From positions 1-22,978 of the IMG/VR virus record IMGVR_UViG_3300038621_000085: a stretch of DNA of 22,978 bases. One strand, written 5' to 3'. Positions 283 to 12,984 of this stretch are shown piece after piece. The position numbers were made by a program, and so were the translations under genes. The DNA comes from a virus. How positions within the stretch are numbered: position 1 is the first letter of the stretch; every line of letters begins with the position of its first letter. Below the pieces are notes generated by a model. The model ran no database searches and was not told where the DNA came from. It saw only the letters and a list, made by a program, of their open reading frames with translations.

Positions 283-1174
283 CTTCAGTTATTTTTTTGT
301 CATTCAAATAATCTGGATTGCTTTTTCTTCGGAGTTTAATGTGGTTATTAATAACTCCTTTGGTAACAGGTGGCTTATATCCTCTTCTTTTTGCTTCTTC
401 TTTGCATTCCTTGACTATTTCGTCCCAGGTACCACCTTTTTCCAATACAGTGTCTATATAATCCGCGAAAGTATTGCCTTTTTTCTGTGGCTTTTTGTCA
501 ATTTTTTGTTTCGATTTTTCTTTCTTTTCACTGGATGATTTCTGTTGTCCAGAAGAACCTTTCTTTGATTCCTTCTTAGGATGATTCTTCGGAGCTGCTA
601 CGGATTGTCCTTTGTCTTTCTTCGCGTCTTTTTCAAACTCTTTTTCTTTTTGTTCTACAGCTTCCCTTGCGCGAGCCGCATCTTTATCCTCCACTTCAAC
701 GCCTTTTCCAATCGTTTCAAGCATGGTGTTTTTCAAAGCTGTTTTCTTCTTAAAAGAACTAAGCTCGCCCCGAATACCTTTGAACTCATCGTAAGATTTG
801 CAAATGTCTTTTAATTCTTTCAAACTTTTTGCATCTTCAATTTCTGATTCTAAATCAGGTTGTTCTTCTTCGTCTGACTCCTCATTGTCCTCCTCTTCTT
901 CTTCAATTCTCTGTTTTAAAGTCTTTTCCTTTTGTCCTGGCCAATAACCAAAATCTTTTAATAACTTTTCGGTTCCTTCGGAAAATTCATCATACTCATC
1001 TGGGCTGATTTCGGGTGAATAAATTTCTTTACTTGCTTCTTTTAGTATGTTTTTCAGATCTTTCCATCCTTTATTTTTGATTGATGGAACGTCTTCAAAA
1101 TCCATTACTTTAAACATCTCACTGAGTGCTTCCCTCAGTTGTTCTTCACTATAATACTGTTTTAATTCTTCCAT
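269..1174 (-). CDS. Unknown Glu/Lys-rich protein inside the preQ0 operon
   Basis: I do not recognise this 301-residue protein. Residues 90-114 are strongly acidic. Residues 116-155 form a predicted helical segment resembling a Rho-N/SAP-like nucleic-acid binding fold (weak similarity by eye). Residues 178-233 are a Lys/Ser/Gln-rich, probably disordered linker, and residues 234-290 form a second compact domain rich in Lys/Arg that could bind DNA. No signal peptide or membrane segment is seen. It sits between queE and queC and its last 14 nt overlap the queC start, so it belongs to the same transcript. The ATG at 1174 is preceded by an AT-rich 71-nt gap with a TTGTATAAT motif. A role in DNA binding or in modification is only a guess from neighbours. 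Confidence 0.8.
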   Translation of the reverse strand: MEELKQYYSEEQLREALSEMFKVMDFEDVPSIKNKGWKDLKNILKEASKEIYSPEISPDEYDEFSEGTEKLLKDFGYWPGQKEKTLKQRIEEEEEDNEESDEEEQPDLESEIEDAKSLKELKDICKSYDEFKGIRGELSSFKKKTALKNTMLETIGKGVEVEDKDAARAREAVEQKEKEFEKDAKKDKGQSVAAPKNHPKKESKKGSSGQQKSSSEKKEKSKQKIDKKPQKKGNTFADYIDTVLEKGGTWDEIVKECKEEAKRRGYKPPVTKGVINNHIKLRRKSNPDYLNDKKITEDGIK

Positions 1175-1202
1175 TTCTGATTAATTTTTGTTTATTATAT
1201 TA

Positions 1203-1215
1203 TACAATCTAGTTT
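1203..1215 (-). promoter_or_regulatory. Possible leftward promoter element TTGTATAAT
   Basis: On the minus strand the 71-nt gap between queE and the 301-aa gene contains TTGTATAATA about 35 nt before the ATG. The same TTGTATAATA lies just upstream of the primase start, and TGTATAAT occurs in the divergent control region. TATAAT matches a sigma-70 -10 box, but no convincing -35 box is seen. Confidence 0.3.
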
Positions 1216-1245
1216 TGAATTAAGTTCGATTTTTTAGAAAAGATT

Positions 1246-2004
1246 TTAAACTCCATTCGCTTTATCCCACAAAAGTATGTGTTCTCGGGTACAATAACGG
1301 ACGTTGTTTTTTAATGCCATTTCTATAACTACCTCACTATTCTTCAACAATTGGTTTCTATTATTACCCAAAGCCATTAGAATAACTTGGTTTTTGTCTA
1401 TTAAACCTGGTTTGATGAAATAGTCGCAGATTTCATTCCAATCTTGTTCCCTAGTAATAACAAATTTAAACCAACTATTATTCAAAGATGACAATAACTT
1501 CAGTATATCAGGTTGATAACTCAATGATCTAGAGTTACCTGAATTAGAAAGTTTTGGTGAGTTGTTCCAAACATCAACTAATTCTATCATATCTTTGCTT
1601 GGAATTAACGTACATTCGTTCTCAATCTCTATAATTGGTTTAAAACCGTATTCAAACCAAAATTCATGAATAAACTCAACTAAAACATGTTGTTGTTTCA
1701 GTGGAGAACCTCCAGTTAGGACTAAGTGTTGTCCATCTTTTAGCTTATCAACTACATTATTCCATTCCATTATCTTGAATAATTCGCGGAAAGTATAAGG
1801 ATTTCCGTATCTCCAAACTTCCTGACTATCACACCATTTACAATTTTGAGTACAATGCTGCATCCTTAAAAAGGCAGATGGTGTACCTATGTTTACGCCT
1901 TCTCCTTGCACAGTATCACAGAAAAACTCCGCGACTTCCAGATATTTAGTATCTGGAAATTCTTTCTTGAAATCTGGTTTTGCTTCTATCAATACCTTAC
2001 TCAT
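1246..2004 (-). CDS. queE: 7-carboxy-7-deazaguanine synthase QueE (radical SAM)
   Basis: QueE is a radical SAM enzyme that contracts the ring of 6-carboxytetrahydropterin to give 7-carboxy-7-deazaguanine. Residues 51-58 contain C-x3-C-x2-C (Cys51, Cys55, Cys58) for the 4Fe-4S cluster, preceded by the QGEG substrate-site motif at 33-36. The SAM-binding motif is TGGSP rather than the usual TGGEP, an unusual change. At 252 residues it is within the range for the family. The start overlaps the end of queD by 8 nt (1997-2004), so the pair is probably coupled. The downstream gene is the 301-aa unknown, then queC. Confidence 0.92.
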   Translation of the reverse strand: MSKVLIEAKPDFKKEFPDTKYLEVAEFFCDTVQGEGVNIGTPSAFLRMQHCTQNCKWCDSQEVWRYGNPYTFRELFKIMEWNNVVDKLKDGQHLVLTGGSPLKQQHVLVEFIHEFWFEYGFKPIIEIENECTLIPSKDMIELVDVWNNSPKLSNSGNSRSLSYQPDILKLLSSLNNSWFKFVITREQDWNEICDYFIKPGLIDKNQVILMALGNNRNQLLKNSEVVIEMALKNNVRYCTREHILLWDKANGV

Positions 2005-2362
2005 AATAAATCGCTTTAGTTTTTTCAGTCTCTTTTACTTCAACTGCAGTTAACTGAGAATATCCATAATTTTCACCATACTTGAATGTTTTGAACAACA
2101 TCTTAGCAATATTCTCTGCAGTTGGATTAAATTCAAAGATATCATTCAGATGTCTATGATCTAAAAACGTATCAATATATTCTTTTATCGGTTTCAATTC
2201 ACCGTAATCTTTGACAAATCCATTATTGTCAAGCACTTTACTTTCTAAATTAACTACTACCACGTAGTTATGACCGTGGACTCTGCTGCATGGATGGCCA
2301 TCTGACAATCCGTGCAACTGATGTGATGCTGAAAAGCGAAATTCTTTACTAATTTCAAACAT
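1997..2362 (-). CDS. queD: 6-carboxytetrahydropterin synthase QueD
   Basis: QueD (6-pyruvoyltetrahydropterin synthase family) converts dihydroneopterin triphosphate to 6-carboxytetrahydropterin, the substrate of QueE. The 121-residue length is normal for the family. Zinc ligands are visible as His14, His29 and His31 (SASHQLHG and the HGHNY segment), the catalytic Cys is Cys25, the Asp/His pair is in DHRH at 68-71, PTAEN lies at 80-84 and the pterin-anchoring Glu is likely Glu111. GTP cyclohydrolase I, which makes the substrate, is not in the window and may come from the host or another part of the phage genome. No Shine-Dalgarno sequence is seen. The gene follows the helicase after a 26-nt gap. 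Confidence 0.93.
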   Translation of the reverse strand: MFEISKEFRFSASHQLHGLSDGHPCSRVHGHNYVVVVNLESKVLDNNGFVKDYGELKPIKEYIDTFLDHRHLNDIFEFNPTAENIAKMLFKTFKYGENYGYSQLTAVEVKETEKTKAIYYE

Positions 2363-3951: not shown

Positions 3952-5235
3952 TTACGATTTTTTCAATTTTCCAGTGTATATATCTACCTTTACTTGTTTA
4001 CTAATTTTATCTGTGAATATCTTAAATACCTTACCTGGTGATAATAAACTTGCATCTTTATTACTTATCCAATCTTGTTCGTTTAACCAATAAATATATT
4101 CTTTAACTAAAAACATACCACCTGGTATATCTTTATTATTCTTTGCGTCCTTACTTTGTTTACTAGATATATAATTACTTAACTCGCATATATTCTGGGT
4201 TATTCTTGTATCTGAGTCATCTATTATTTCTTTCGCCTTTTCGCACATATCATTAATAACTGATTTTTGCCAACCAGTAAAATACTGTTCTATGATTTGT
4301 TCGGGCGTTTGTTCGGGAGTGTTTTGTTCGTTATTATCGGAATAGGATATCATCTCACTTGGATCATCTAACCAACGTTCTTGATTTAACCACGTACTTG
4401 GGTGGGGTATATATTTCTTGTTTTGCCATCTTTCACTTTTCTTTTGTTTAGCTAATGCTACAGATATATCTTTCCATTTGGGTCTATGTTTACGATTGCA
4501 TAATCTATTCCATATAGTTTTGCATTTACCCTTATCTATTTTTCTTGGGTACATCTTCCAAAACCTTTCAAATTTGGATAGAGTTATTTTATCATCTTTT
4601 GGATCACTATTTTTGGTGTTACTTTGTTGACTTGTTTCCTCAACTTCAATGGAAGATTTAATATTTTTATATTTAATATTTTTTAATATTAATATTTTTA
4701 ATTCCGGGTTTTCCACATGGTGGGCTCCCACAACATGGAAAGCCGTATCCGGAAAAGCGGGTTGTGGATCTTTGTATAGTTTATCTGCATTTATACCCAC
4801 CTCTATTCGCGATAAATCAAGTTGTTTTAAACTCTCAGATATATAGAATTGATTAGGTATATCTGTGTATGCCCAAAAACTACCTATCCATTTTTTACTT
4901 TGTATATCCCTATATCTGAATTTAAGTATATAACCGTGTTCTTCTAATTCTTTGAATCCAGTATTTATAGCTTCCCTGCCTTCTAAAGTTTTATTCTCAA
5001 CTATTTCAGATACGTAAGAAACCCATCCTTCTTTATTACTTAATAATAAACTCAACAAAGCTTTAGCTTTTAGTGATATTTTTGGATTTCTTAGAAGTTC
5101 GTTTGGAACTTGTGTATAATCTTTTATCGAACTGCAGTTAATTGCATCTTTTACTTTGTTTTTTACTTGTCCAGGATACCTTGTTCGATTCATTTGGGTA
5201 GGTAGATTAAAAAATTCCAAGGTTTCGGTGGGCAC
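3952..5235 (-). CDS. Winged-helix replication initiation/helicase-loading protein
   Basis: A 427-residue protein with two recognisable parts. Residues 35-110 form a winged-helix DNA-binding domain of the type found in phage and plasmid replication initiators. Residues 220-292 carry a segment common in phage replication proteins, with FWKMYPRK and later HPSTWLNQERW as key residues. Its position directly before the DnaB-type helicase supports initiation or helicase loading. The start is uncertain: the longest frame begins at GTG 5235, with AAGGGAG 8 nt upstream. An ATG 14 codons later (5193) has no ribosome binding site. The GTG and AAGGGAG lie inside a predicted hairpin with a loop complementary to a second upstream hairpin (5210-5306), suggesting translational control. 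Confidence 0.82.
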   Translation of the reverse strand: MPTETLEFFNLPTQMNRTRYPGQVKNKVKDAINCSSIKDYTQVPNELLRNPKISLKAKALLSLLLSNKEGWVSYVSEIVENKTLEGREAINTGFKELEEHGYILKFRYRDIQSKKWIGSFWAYTDIPNQFYISESLKQLDLSRIEVGINADKLYKDPQPAFPDTAFHVVGAHHVENPELKILILKNIKYKNIKSSIEVEETSQQSNTKNSDPKDDKITLSKFERFWKMYPRKIDKGKCKTIWNRLCNRKHRPKWKDISVALAKQKKSERWQNKKYIPHPSTWLNQERWLDDPSEMISYSDNNEQNTPEQTPEQIIEQYFTGWQKSVINDMCEKAKEIIDDSDTRITQNICELSNYISSKQSKDAKNNKDIPGGMFLVKEYIYWLNEQDWISNKDASLLSPGKVFKIFTDKISKQVKVDIYTGKLKKS

Positions 5236-5306
5236 AGCACCTACTCCCTTGGAATTTTTGATTCAACAATATATTTTTATCGCACTGTGCCCACGATTTA
5301 TTGTTG
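5210..5306 (-). promoter_or_regulatory. Predicted kissing-loop RNA or origin structure before the replication gene
   Basis: Three interlocking perfect inverted repeats are seen. Hairpin 1 on the minus-strand RNA has 8-bp arms at 5299-5306 and 5264-5271. Hairpin 2 has 13-bp arms (AAAAATTCCAAGG and its complement) at 5247-5259 and 5210-5222. The loop of hairpin 1 contains GTGGGCACAG (5285-5294) and the loop of hairpin 2 contains CTGTGCCCAC (5228-5237), a perfect 10-bp complement. The second loop includes the GTG start (5235-5233), and the AAGGGAG ribosome binding site (5250-5244) spans the stem edge. The order of arms fits a kissing-loop. At the DNA level the same repeats could be initiator sites or an origin. 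Confidence 0.6.
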
Positions 5307-5314
5307 TCTATTTG

Positions 5315-5322
5315 CAAATATA
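5315..5322 (-). promoter_or_regulatory. Bacteroidota-type -7 box TATATTTG
   Basis: TATATTTG on the minus strand fits the TAnnTTTG -7 element of Bacteroidota primary sigma promoters. A TTTT stands 19 nt upstream where TTTG would be expected, so the -33 box is imperfect. Transcription would start near 5308, almost exactly at the base of the first hairpin of the 5210-5306 structure. Confidence 0.4.
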
Positions 5323-6287: not shown

Positions 6288-6755
6288 TTATTTATTATAC
6301 AATTCAAATTCCAAAGTATGGCCTTTTTCTGCTAACAGTGATATATCTTGTATCATATTCTTTATTATATCAGCTTTGTAGTCATACTTTCTTAACAGAT
6401 CTTTGTATAGATTTTGATTTTTATATGCTAATTTTGCTGCGCGTATCGTTTTACTGTGGCATATAGGTTTCATCTCAAAAGTATGTATATCATTGTGTTT
6501 TATATCACTATCAAAGTCGGATGATACGTATCTCTTCTCTTTTTTGCAGAAATTTATTAACCTGTTTTTCATGCAATACCATAGGTAAGAACTTATCTTA
6601 GTATTCTTACTTGTTTCGTAAGTGTTTATAGCTTCACAATAAGCTAATGCTGCTTCCGAAAATAACTCATTCCATTCTATGCCGGTGCTGTGATAGAATG
6701 ACCATGCAATTTTACGTACTAAATTGATGTGTTTTGTTCTGATTAACTTATTCAT
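6288..6755 (-). CDS. Sigma-70 region 2-like protein
   Basis: A 155-residue protein whose residues 8-75 resemble sigma-70 region 2: a helix with LVRKIAWSFY, an acidic stretch with ELFSEAALAYCEAI, then TKISSYLWYCMKNRLINF and a basic KKEKR. This region binds the RNA polymerase clamp and the -10 element. The remaining 80 residues are helical and Lys-rich and show no clear region 4, so -35 recognition is not evident. It could be a minimal phage sigma factor for middle or late transcription or a polymerase-binding regulator. It is placed between the SNF2 helicase (4-nt gap) and primase (5-nt gap) in the early block. Confidence 0.65.
   Translation of the reverse strand: MNKLIRTKHINLVRKIAWSFYHSTGIEWNELFSEAALAYCEAINTYETSKNTKISSYLWYCMKNRLINFCKKEKRYVSSDFDSDIKHNDIHTFEMKPICHSKTIRAAKLAYKNQNLYKDLLRKYDYKADIIKNMIQDISLLAEKGHTLEFELYNK
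6294..6304 (-). promoter_or_regulatory. Possible leftward promoter element TTGTATAAT before primase
   Basis: TTGTATAATAAATAAAA lies on the minus strand directly before the primase ATG, within the last codons of the sigma-like gene. It shares TTGTATAATA with the gap before the 301-aa gene. As a -10 box this would leave almost no leader, so a ribosome-binding enhancer or AT-rich start context is the alternative. Confidence 0.25.
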
Positions 6756-10353: not shown

Positions 10354-10380
10354 AATATTTGGTTTTTGCGGTTAATATTG

Positions 10381-10423
10381 AACCCACAGGTGGAATCGAA
10401 CCACCTTACAACCATTGTGGGTT
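10381..10423 (-). ncRNA. tRNA-like minihelix (acceptor stem plus T-arm only)
   Basis: On the minus strand AACCCACA (10423-10416) pairs perfectly with TGTGGGTT (10388-10381). Between them are 10 nt (ATGGTTGTAA) and a perfect T-arm: GGTGG, loop TTCGATT, CCACC (10405-10389). The loop fits the tRNA consensus TTCRANY and the T-stem joins the 3' acceptor strand without a gap, exactly as in tRNA. D-arm and anticodon arm are missing, so it is not a normal tRNA. No CCA follows the stem (CAATA). An acceptor/T-arm minihelix is the minimal RNase P substrate, so a processing signal is possible. A tRNA remnant or an attP copy of a host tRNA end are alternatives. Confidence 0.6.
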
Positions 10424-11492: not shown

Positions 11493-12984
11493 AAATAATG
11501 CTGATAAACAAGTTATTGAACAGGCAGTTACAAATCCATTGTCTTCCATGCGAAGTATAGTTAAATCTTCACTGTACTATTTTGTTCGTTACTTTTGGGA
11601 TGAGTTAAGTAATGATGAGTTTCACGACAACTGGCACATTAAGTATTTATGTGATGAGTGTCAGAAAGTAATAGAACGAGTTGAGAAAAGACAACCAAAG
11701 TTGTATGATTTGATAATAAACATACCACCAGGCACAACTAAATCAACAATAGTAAGTCGGATGTTACCAGTTTGGGCATGGACAAGGTCATATTGGATGA
11801 AGTTTATTACAGGTAGTTACGGCAGCACATTATCATTGGAGTTAGCGGAGGATAGCAGGGATTTACTTAGGAGTGAAAGATTTGGAGAGTTATTCCCGGA
11901 GTTGGGGATAAAACAAGATAAGGAGCAGAAGTCAAATTTTAAGGTTGTTAAAAAGGAGTGGGTTAGGAAGAATTCGGTACCCCGGCAACACCAAGGCGGT
12001 GGAAGGTTCTCAACTTCAGTTGGTAGTGGAGTTATGGGATTCCATGGTCACGTAATTATAATAGATGATCCATTGAATCCAAAACAAGCATTATCAGAAG
12101 TTGAGTTATTGAATGCCAACCGATGGGTAAGTAGTACGTTAAGCTCAAGAAAGACAGATAAGGAGAAGACACCTATTATATTGATAATGCAGCGCCTTCA
12201 CCAGAATGATGTAACCGGGGATTTACTGGACAGAAAAGACAATATAAAACATATATGTTTACCAGCATCACTAGATAATACACCTCATCTGGTTAAACCG
12301 AAAGAATTGAAAAAATATTACCAGGATGGATTGTTAGATCCAGTACGATTGAACAGAAATGTATTAAAAGAAGCATACTCAGAAGGTCAATATGTATACT
12401 CAAGTCAATATGATCAAGATCCTGTGCCAGCAGGTGGCGGAATGTTCCAAATAGATAATATACCAGTTATTGAAGCAATGCCCGCCCGAGTTAATATAAC
12501 CAAAACTGTTCGGTATTGGGATAAGGCAGGATCAGAAGGAACTGGGGCTTATACAGTTGGTACTAAGATGTGTAGATTGAAGTCAGGTAAGTGGATTATT
12601 ATTGATGTAGTGCGCGGACAATGGTCAAGTGAAAAACGTGAAAAGATAATAAGGCAGACAGCCGAAGCAGATGGATACAATACAACGGTATATATAGAAC
12701 AGGAACCGGGATCAGGAGGTAAAGAATCCGCGATGTCTACGGTAAGAAATTTGGAAGGATTTGCTTGTTACAGGGATTTGCCAACAGGTAATAAGGAGTA
12801 TCGAGCTGATCCTTTCTCAGTACAAGTTAACGAAGGTAATGTTATGATGTTGCGCGGGGATTGGAATGCGAAGTTCAGAGAAGAGTTAAGGTATTTTCCG
12901 TTTTCAACTTATAAGGATCAGGTGGATTCAGCATCAGGAGCATTCGCAAAATTAGTTATTAGAAAAAAAGCCGGTAAGTTATGA
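11473..12984 (+). CDS. terL: Terminase large subunit
   Basis: Motor and nuclease of DNA packaging, 503 residues. ATPase: Walker A-like PPGTTKST at 85-92, Walker B VIIIDDP at 194-200, and IMQRLHQNDVTGDLL at 238-252, a conserved coupling segment. Nuclease (RNase H-like) domain: Asp350 in RYWDKA, Glu409 or Glu411 in IEQEPGS, and Asp485 in QVDSASGAF are the likely metal ligands. All expected motifs are intact. The start lies inside the end of terS (20-nt overlap), and its stop overlaps the portal start as ATGA, so these three are translationally coupled. Confidence 0.95.
   Translation: MERTAIKNNADKQVIEQAVTNPLSSMRSIVKSSLYYFVRYFWDELSNDEFHDNWHIKYLCDECQKVIERVEKRQPKLYDLIINIPPGTTKSTIVSRMLPVWAWTRSYWMKFITGSYGSTLSLELAEDSRDLLRSERFGELFPELGIKQDKEQKSNFKVVKKEWVRKNSVPRQHQGGGRFSTSVGSGVMGFHGHVIIIDDPLNPKQALSEVELLNANRWVSSTLSSRKTDKEKTPIILIMQRLHQNDVTGDLLDRKDNIKHICLPASLDNTPHLVKPKELKKYYQDGLLDPVRLNRNVLKEAYSEGQYVYSSQYDQDPVPAGGGMFQIDNIPVIEAMPARVNITKTVRYWDKAGSEGTGAYTVGTKMCRLKSGKWIIIDVVRGQWSSEKREKIIRQTAEADGYNTTVYIEQEPGSGGKESAMSTVRNLEGFACYRDLPTGNKEYRADPFSVQVNEGNVMMLRGDWNAKFREELRYFPFSTYKDQVDSASGAFAKLVIRKKAGKL

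Follow-up and report, generated by a model that had tools for sequence, protein, structure and literature searches.

The 22,978-nt stretch of viral DNA analysed here (the window) carries on its minus strand, directly upstream of a gene for a replication initiation protein, two inverted repeats whose loops are complementary to each other. The first-pass annotation read these repeats as a kissing-loop RNA that covers the start of the gene and switches its expression, with a cruciform-type origin as the alternative. The locus raises the question of whether the repeats act as RNA or as DNA and, if as RNA, of what that RNA does for the gene behind it.

Architecture of the leader upstream of the replication gene

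The leader RNA extends from position 5310 to position 5194 (minus strand, as for all leader features given here), flanked by a promoter box on one side and the start codon of the following gene on the other. The box, TATATTTG at 5315-5322, is present as annotated earlier and matches the Bacteroidota-type −7 promoter box TAnnTTTG; the transcript would be expected to start a few nucleotides downstream of it, before hairpin 1. Over the window as a whole, the TAnnTTTG motif is not over-represented (33 occurrences versus 29 expected). Hairpin 1 (5279-5297) consists of a 6-bp stem, AUCGUG/UGCGAU, that closes the 7-nt loop GGCACAG (5285-5291), or ATCGTG(GGCACAG)TGCGAT in DNA form. The 8-bp arms that had been taken for hairpin 1, CAACAAUA/UAUUGUUG, do exist and surround it (5264-5306, with the arms at 5299-5306 and 5264-5271), but no such outer arms were seen in the other leaders compared; they lie outside the conserved element, in which hairpin 1 has just the inner 6-bp stem. 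An A/U-rich linker of 19 nt (5260-5278; mostly 10-22 nt in other leaders) leads to hairpin 2 (5210-5259), which comprises the previously described perfect 13-bp outer stem (5247-5259/5210-5222), an internal loop GAGUA/GAAA (5242-5246/5223-5226), a 4-bp inner stem GGUG/CACC, and a 7-nt apical loop CUGUGCC (5231-5237) that is the complement of the hairpin 1 loop. A terminator-like U6 run (5209-5214) overlaps the 3′ end of hairpin 2.

The internal loop is of the bulged-G (loop E, sarcin-ricin) type, its AGUA/GAA motif being present as a sequence match; the motif was demanded by the search pattern in most family members, and Olleya phage Harreka_1 and contig L223 were found with other closing pairs. 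Folding z scores were −3.6 for hairpin 2 and −2.3 for the surrounding 141-nt region, and hairpin 2 scored 60.3 bits with CM R1, which was built from sequences that included the window. The loops GGCACAG and CTGTGCC are perfect complements over 7 nt. The longer 10-bp perfect complementarity annotated earlier, GTGGGCACAG/CTGTGCCCAC at 5285-5294/5228-5237, was also recovered; its conserved part is the 7-bp loop-loop helix, and the other 3 bp sit in both stems and are not generally conserved.

The gene behind the leader (3952-5193, minus strand) encodes a 413-residue replication initiation protein (PHROG 270, E = 6.9e-29). Its frame is also open from a GTG at 5235, and this codon (5235-5233) does fall within the second loop, which had been said to contain the gene start. 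By comparison with related sequences, the start codon is almost certainly the ATG at 5193 instead, 16 nt past hairpin 2 and outside the pairing. In L161/L219, the orthologous Rep starts at the corresponding ATG, which its own hairpin 2 precedes by 18 nt, and an ATG lies 3-25 nt (median, 12 nt) after hairpin 2 in all 39 tabulated leaders of the window's class (class E, described below). On these grounds, GTG 5235 was rejected as the Rep start.

Compensatory changes in loops and stems

A pattern describing hairpin 2 alone returned 81 stretches from IMG/VR, and where hairpin 2 was good, a hairpin with an exactly complementary loop stood in most cases about 30 nt upstream. The pattern fixes GGGAGTAG and GAAACC, and their conservation is therefore in part built into the search, unlike that of the pairing. 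Class E is characterised by a GAGUA/GAAA hairpin 2 with a 4-bp inner stem and a loop of 6-7 nt, a complementary upstream loop, and a flanking box and ATG, all of which were found in the window. Of the 36 class-E members selected on hairpin 2 alone, 34 carry within 75 nt upstream a 6-mer that complements the loop perfectly, compared with 27 of 518 in a mismatched control that used the loops of other members, and the remaining two (L126 and L144) keep the kiss through G-U pairs. Loop partners were located by a search for complementarity, and permutations and cross-pairings served as the intended control. A 37th unique member, on a bacterial contig (L180), was taken as a false positive.

Compensatory change in the loops and stems of homologues, the check suggested together with the original annotation, was strongly borne out. 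The L161/L219 Rep is an orthologue with 48% identity to that of the window, and its leader has the loops GTACCCG/CGGGTAC versus GGCACAG/CTGTGCC. One phage (L128/G003 and L223) has two kissing leaders before near-identical gene starts, with loops TATCCG/CGGATA in one and TGTCCG/CGGACA in the other, a difference of one compensated pair; in the second copy, GGGAGUA/GAAACC is replaced by GGUAAGUA/GAAAGCC. A second class of leaders, with a GGAU/UGAA internal loop, includes eight loop types, each with its matching partner.

Pair counts over 28 distinct members supported all four helices, with changes on both sides in five of six kissing pairs, in all seven stem pairs of hairpin 1, and in 8 of 11 outer and two of four inner pairs of hairpin 2; related contigs are not independent events. 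The covariation score in the same members was 0.69, versus 0.20 when shuffled and at most 0.16 when slid. In the pair-count table the 100% pairing of the kissing helix is by construction, full pairing having been required for inclusion, and the double changes are not. The counts were made on concatenated hairpins because MAFFT, applied to the whole leaders, failed to align hairpin 1 correctly. Judged from these sequence comparisons, both hairpin stems and the loop-loop pairing (6-8 nt) are preserved through compensatory changes, and we regard it as close to certain that the minus-strand leader would fold as a kissing-hairpin RNA, as the first-pass annotation had proposed.

Occurrence of the leader in phages of Bacteroidota

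The same design was found in dozens of IMG/VR phage contigs. A structure-only scan for a box, two kissing hairpins, and an ATG over 686 kb (the window together with parts of related phage records) gave 12 sites, including that of the window, versus 0, 0, and 0 in three shuffles, and 7 of the 12 have other internal loops. A second scan that was blind to kissing (box, terminator-like hairpin with T-run, and ORF) gave 30 sites, and its shuffled control gave 1. Of 24 of these kissing-blind sites, picked by hand with near-duplicate leaders omitted, 10 had a loop match of at least 7, compared with a mean of 1.4 and a maximum of 7 over 20,000 permutations. A simpler leader was observed at 12880 (+) of contig L275, with an 8-bp kiss ACGGCTAC/GTAGCCGT and a plain stem-loop as its second hairpin. 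Two sets of matches were discarded: L004, a match of a fixed 9-N spacer pattern, proved to be a chance coding match, and the GGGAGTAG..CGTC..GAAACC group (L135, L148, L154, and others) was excluded for its poor inner stem and inconsistent kissing.

Homologues of a downstream gene occur mostly in phages of Flavobacterium, Cellulophaga, and Olleya, and the named cultured phages were reached through the downstream protein and not through DNA similarity; a DNA similarity search of INPHARED phages found no leader, presumably owing to the variable loops and stems. Olleya phage Harreka_1 carries a class-E leader (loops GTGGTGG/CCACCAC), Flavobacterium phages tooticki9-1 and hemulen6-1 carry a leader with loops GTCGTC/GACGAC before an HNH-type endonuclease gene, and tooticki9-1 has an additional one (loops GTGAGACG/CGTCTCAC) before gp035-036. 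The loops are TGAGAGC/GCTCTCA in Flavobacterium phage elemoC, and in Cellulophaga phi19:3 a 9-nt CTCTCACAA match lies directly upstream of the gene, the stem of hairpin 1 being weak by eye.

A scan of genome_contigs gave 14 matches, of which one, in Dysgonomonas sp. PH5-45 (L186), is real and has the same sequence as the viral contig L105; no such leader was seen on inspection of the other 13. This bacterium was also the sole match in CM R1 surveys of 393 and 396 genomes from two orders, in which the filters may have lost weak members, so the element is rare in the bacterial genomes sampled. Because the named phages and Dysgonomonas sp. PH5-45 carry the leader, the host phylum of the family is Bacteroidota, and the promoter box of the window and its membership of the family point to the same phylum for its own host.

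Downstream genes and spacing of the leader elements

The genes that follow the leaders encode Rep, HTH_36 proteins, BT4734-like/PriCT primases, and DUF3987 proteins, as well as HNH and GIY-YIG endonucleases, Mom, and a helicase-methylase, a range that speaks against the earlier suggestion of a switch dedicated to the replication protein. In contig L206 (the same as L058), a Mom-family DNA modification gene (848-1495, minus strand) stands directly after a kissing leader. Replication genes of the MAENKKSF type (DUF6291-like) are headed by either a class-E or a GGAU leader, and another pair of homologous genes (44% identity) has leaders of different classes. A single phage may combine several classes, with a separate gene behind each leader, and the number of copies reaches two to four in some phages. 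Among Rep relatives, L003 (confirmed by tblastn) has both hairpins upstream, with other loops and with an HNH gene in between; L002 is without a leader, and the upstream reading frame runs close to its start.

In 26 of the 39 class-E leaders, 1-17 nt separate the end of a TAnnTTTG box from hairpin 1, compared with 4% of background windows, and the 17 nt of our window is the farthest in the class. The U content of the 8 nt after hairpin 2 is 5.6 in class E versus 2.7 for background. In all 10 leaders of the GGAU class, the last G-C pair leads into a U-run of 6-8 while the distance to the ATG varies from 7 to 28 nt, which indicates that this run is part of the hairpin. Behind the boxes of other genes in these phages stand short unstructured leaders, so the element is no general feature of the mRNAs of these phages.

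Further features were recorded elsewhere in the window. Genes for a QueE-like radical SAM protein and a QueD-like 6-pyruvoyl-tetrahydropterin synthase (1246-2362, minus strand) suggest a phage 7-deazaguanine DNA modification. A small protein with a sigma-70 region 2 domain, encoded between the primase and helicase genes (6288-6755, minus strand), may represent a sigma factor of the phage. A tRNA T-arm-like stretch, GGTGGAATCGAACCACC (10380-10422, plus strand), gave a weak Rfam match, and ARAGORN found no tRNA in the window.

Comparison with known RNA elements

In IncI/IncB plasmids, repZ translation is activated by a pseudoknot that depends on leader-peptide translation and is countered by an antisense RNA. 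The likeness to this system that had been drawn earlier holds for ColIb-P9 insofar as loop-loop pairing occurs in the mRNA leader of a replication initiator, but it goes no further: no ATG was found inside the window leader, the pairing excludes the start codon and neither involves nor exposes a Shine-Dalgarno sequence or the start of rep, and the element serves many types of gene. For a possible antisense RNA, a box-like TATTTTTG occurs on the plus strand at 5077-5084, and such boxes are at chance frequency in the window. Transcription attenuators (e.g. the pIP501/pT181 rep leaders and riboswitch terminators) share with the leader the order of promoter, structured leader, terminator-like hairpin with U-run, and gene, and the gene after such leaders is often rep. 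They differ in that the conserved feature of the family described here is a cis loop-loop helix of variable, covarying sequence, and no antisense RNA or ligand was identified for it.

The loops of guanidine-II riboswitches are a short conserved ligand-binding sequence, whereas those of our leaders (6-8 nt) vary freely, and the window has no Rfam match to this riboswitch up to E = 5. Common to both are two leader hairpins, P1 and P2 in the riboswitch, with kissing loops (PMC9300104). A hairpin with a GAGUAG/CGAAA internal loop and a U-run is also found in TEG147 (Rfam RF03535), a small RNA of Staphylococcus aureus. Hairpin 2 of L105 (9624-9673) scored 35.8 bits against this model, below the gathering score of 56.1, and the window gave no match; the 60-nt model is a single hairpin without an upstream kissing hairpin. 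From the resemblance of L105 to TEG147, it is possible that the loop E terminator-like hairpin is shared with Firmicutes. The candidate HMP2_4078, a 109-nt palindromic RNA of Bacteroidetes found near phage D5 N-terminal and integrase domains in a microbiome screen (Fremin and Bhatt 2021, PMC8040213), may or may not be the same element, judged from its description. Rfam 15 has no family at threshold for the leaders, and the open-licence titles and abstracts returned by literature searches, a scope short of proving novelty, contain no description of the element. It looks like an undescribed RNA control element.

Possible roles of the leader

Control of the downstream gene in cis by the leader is probable. 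We favour a transcription attenuator because hairpin 2 and its U-run resemble an intrinsic terminator, the stable hairpin being followed directly by the U-run. A simple terminator scan (simple loop of 3-8 nt) did not list hairpin 2, and its rule is unfit for a hairpin with an internal loop. RNA polymerase would start just before hairpin 1, hairpin 2 would fold while the U-run is being made, and a fraction of the transcripts would end there. The cis loop-loop helix would pre-organise or stabilise hairpin 2 and set the terminated fraction, and a factor or the timing of folding could break the kiss and shift the balance. Against attenuation, the U-run of the window overlaps the stem of hairpin 2, and a few leaders (L126, L221) are without a good U-run. 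We give attenuation as the mechanism an even chance, and the account as a whole, a cis-acting attenuator set by loop-loop pairing, a slightly better one.

With a median of 12 nt to the ATG, the terminator-like structure might equally well serve to gate the ribosome. The leader might act in translation or mRNA stability: the kissed hairpins would give the mRNA a compact, protective 5′ end and set a helix just upstream of a U-rich initiation region free of structure, so that initiation is helped or gated in hosts whose ribosomes make no use of Shine-Dalgarno pairing. The constant proximity of the ATG to hairpin 2 in class E would fit this role, as would the interchangeable classes, which suggest a structural and not a ligand-specific function, and Bacteroidetes naturally lack Shine-Dalgarno sequences and tune initiation by mRNA structure (PMC6847099). 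We nevertheless judge it rather unlikely, in view of the GGAU-class U-run, which is tied to the hairpin and not to the ATG, and of the short unstructured leaders behind the boxes of other genes in the same phages. A free-standing small RNA of about 95 nt, acting in trans as a decoy or regulator while the gene is read by run-through, would account for the self-contained unit of promoter box and terminator-like end and for the conservation of the internal-loop sequence within a class. That an ATG follows shortly after every tabulated class-E leader, that each of several classes in one phage stands before its own gene, and that homologous genes retain a leader though its class changes together make such an RNA quite improbable.

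The put RNAs of phage HK022 lie at the start of early-operon transcripts, and the leaders likewise open the phage transcripts of replication genes with a pair of hairpins. A structured 5′ end of that kind would act on the transcribing polymerase and carry it past terminators, beginning with the U-run of hairpin 2. Yet here the second hairpin is itself terminator-like, the classes share no sequence fit to be a common contact for the polymerase, and, to our knowledge, put RNAs have neither loop-loop covariation nor a terminator-like second hairpin; we consider antitermination of this kind improbable, if marginally less so than the small RNA. Extrusion of the inverted repeats as a DNA cruciform, or their use as a protein-binding replication origin, would suit the position of the window copy next to replication genes. 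This alternative, already raised in the first-pass annotation, is now very hard to sustain: frequent G-U pairs (e.g. in L126 and L144) fix the strand, the element always faces the same way with respect to promoter, U-run, and ATG, and many copies stand before endonuclease or Mom genes, in phages that may have more than one.

Returning to the attenuator, we tentatively suggest, at somewhat less than even confidence, that the leaders constitute a shared modular class of Bacteroidota phages in which a programmable 6-8-bp kiss would control expression past a terminator-like hairpin 2, the loops being interchangeable and the architecture being what is selected. The family amounts to a structured RNA that is widespread, has no Rfam 15 match at threshold, and heads replication and homing-endonuclease genes in Bacteroidota phages, where gene control is little known. 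Loop-loop pairing is unusually testable, as the sequence can be swapped if the pairing is kept, and with cultured phages that carry the leader (Harreka_1, tooticki9-1, hemulen6-1, elemoC, and phi19:3), its function can be settled at the bench.
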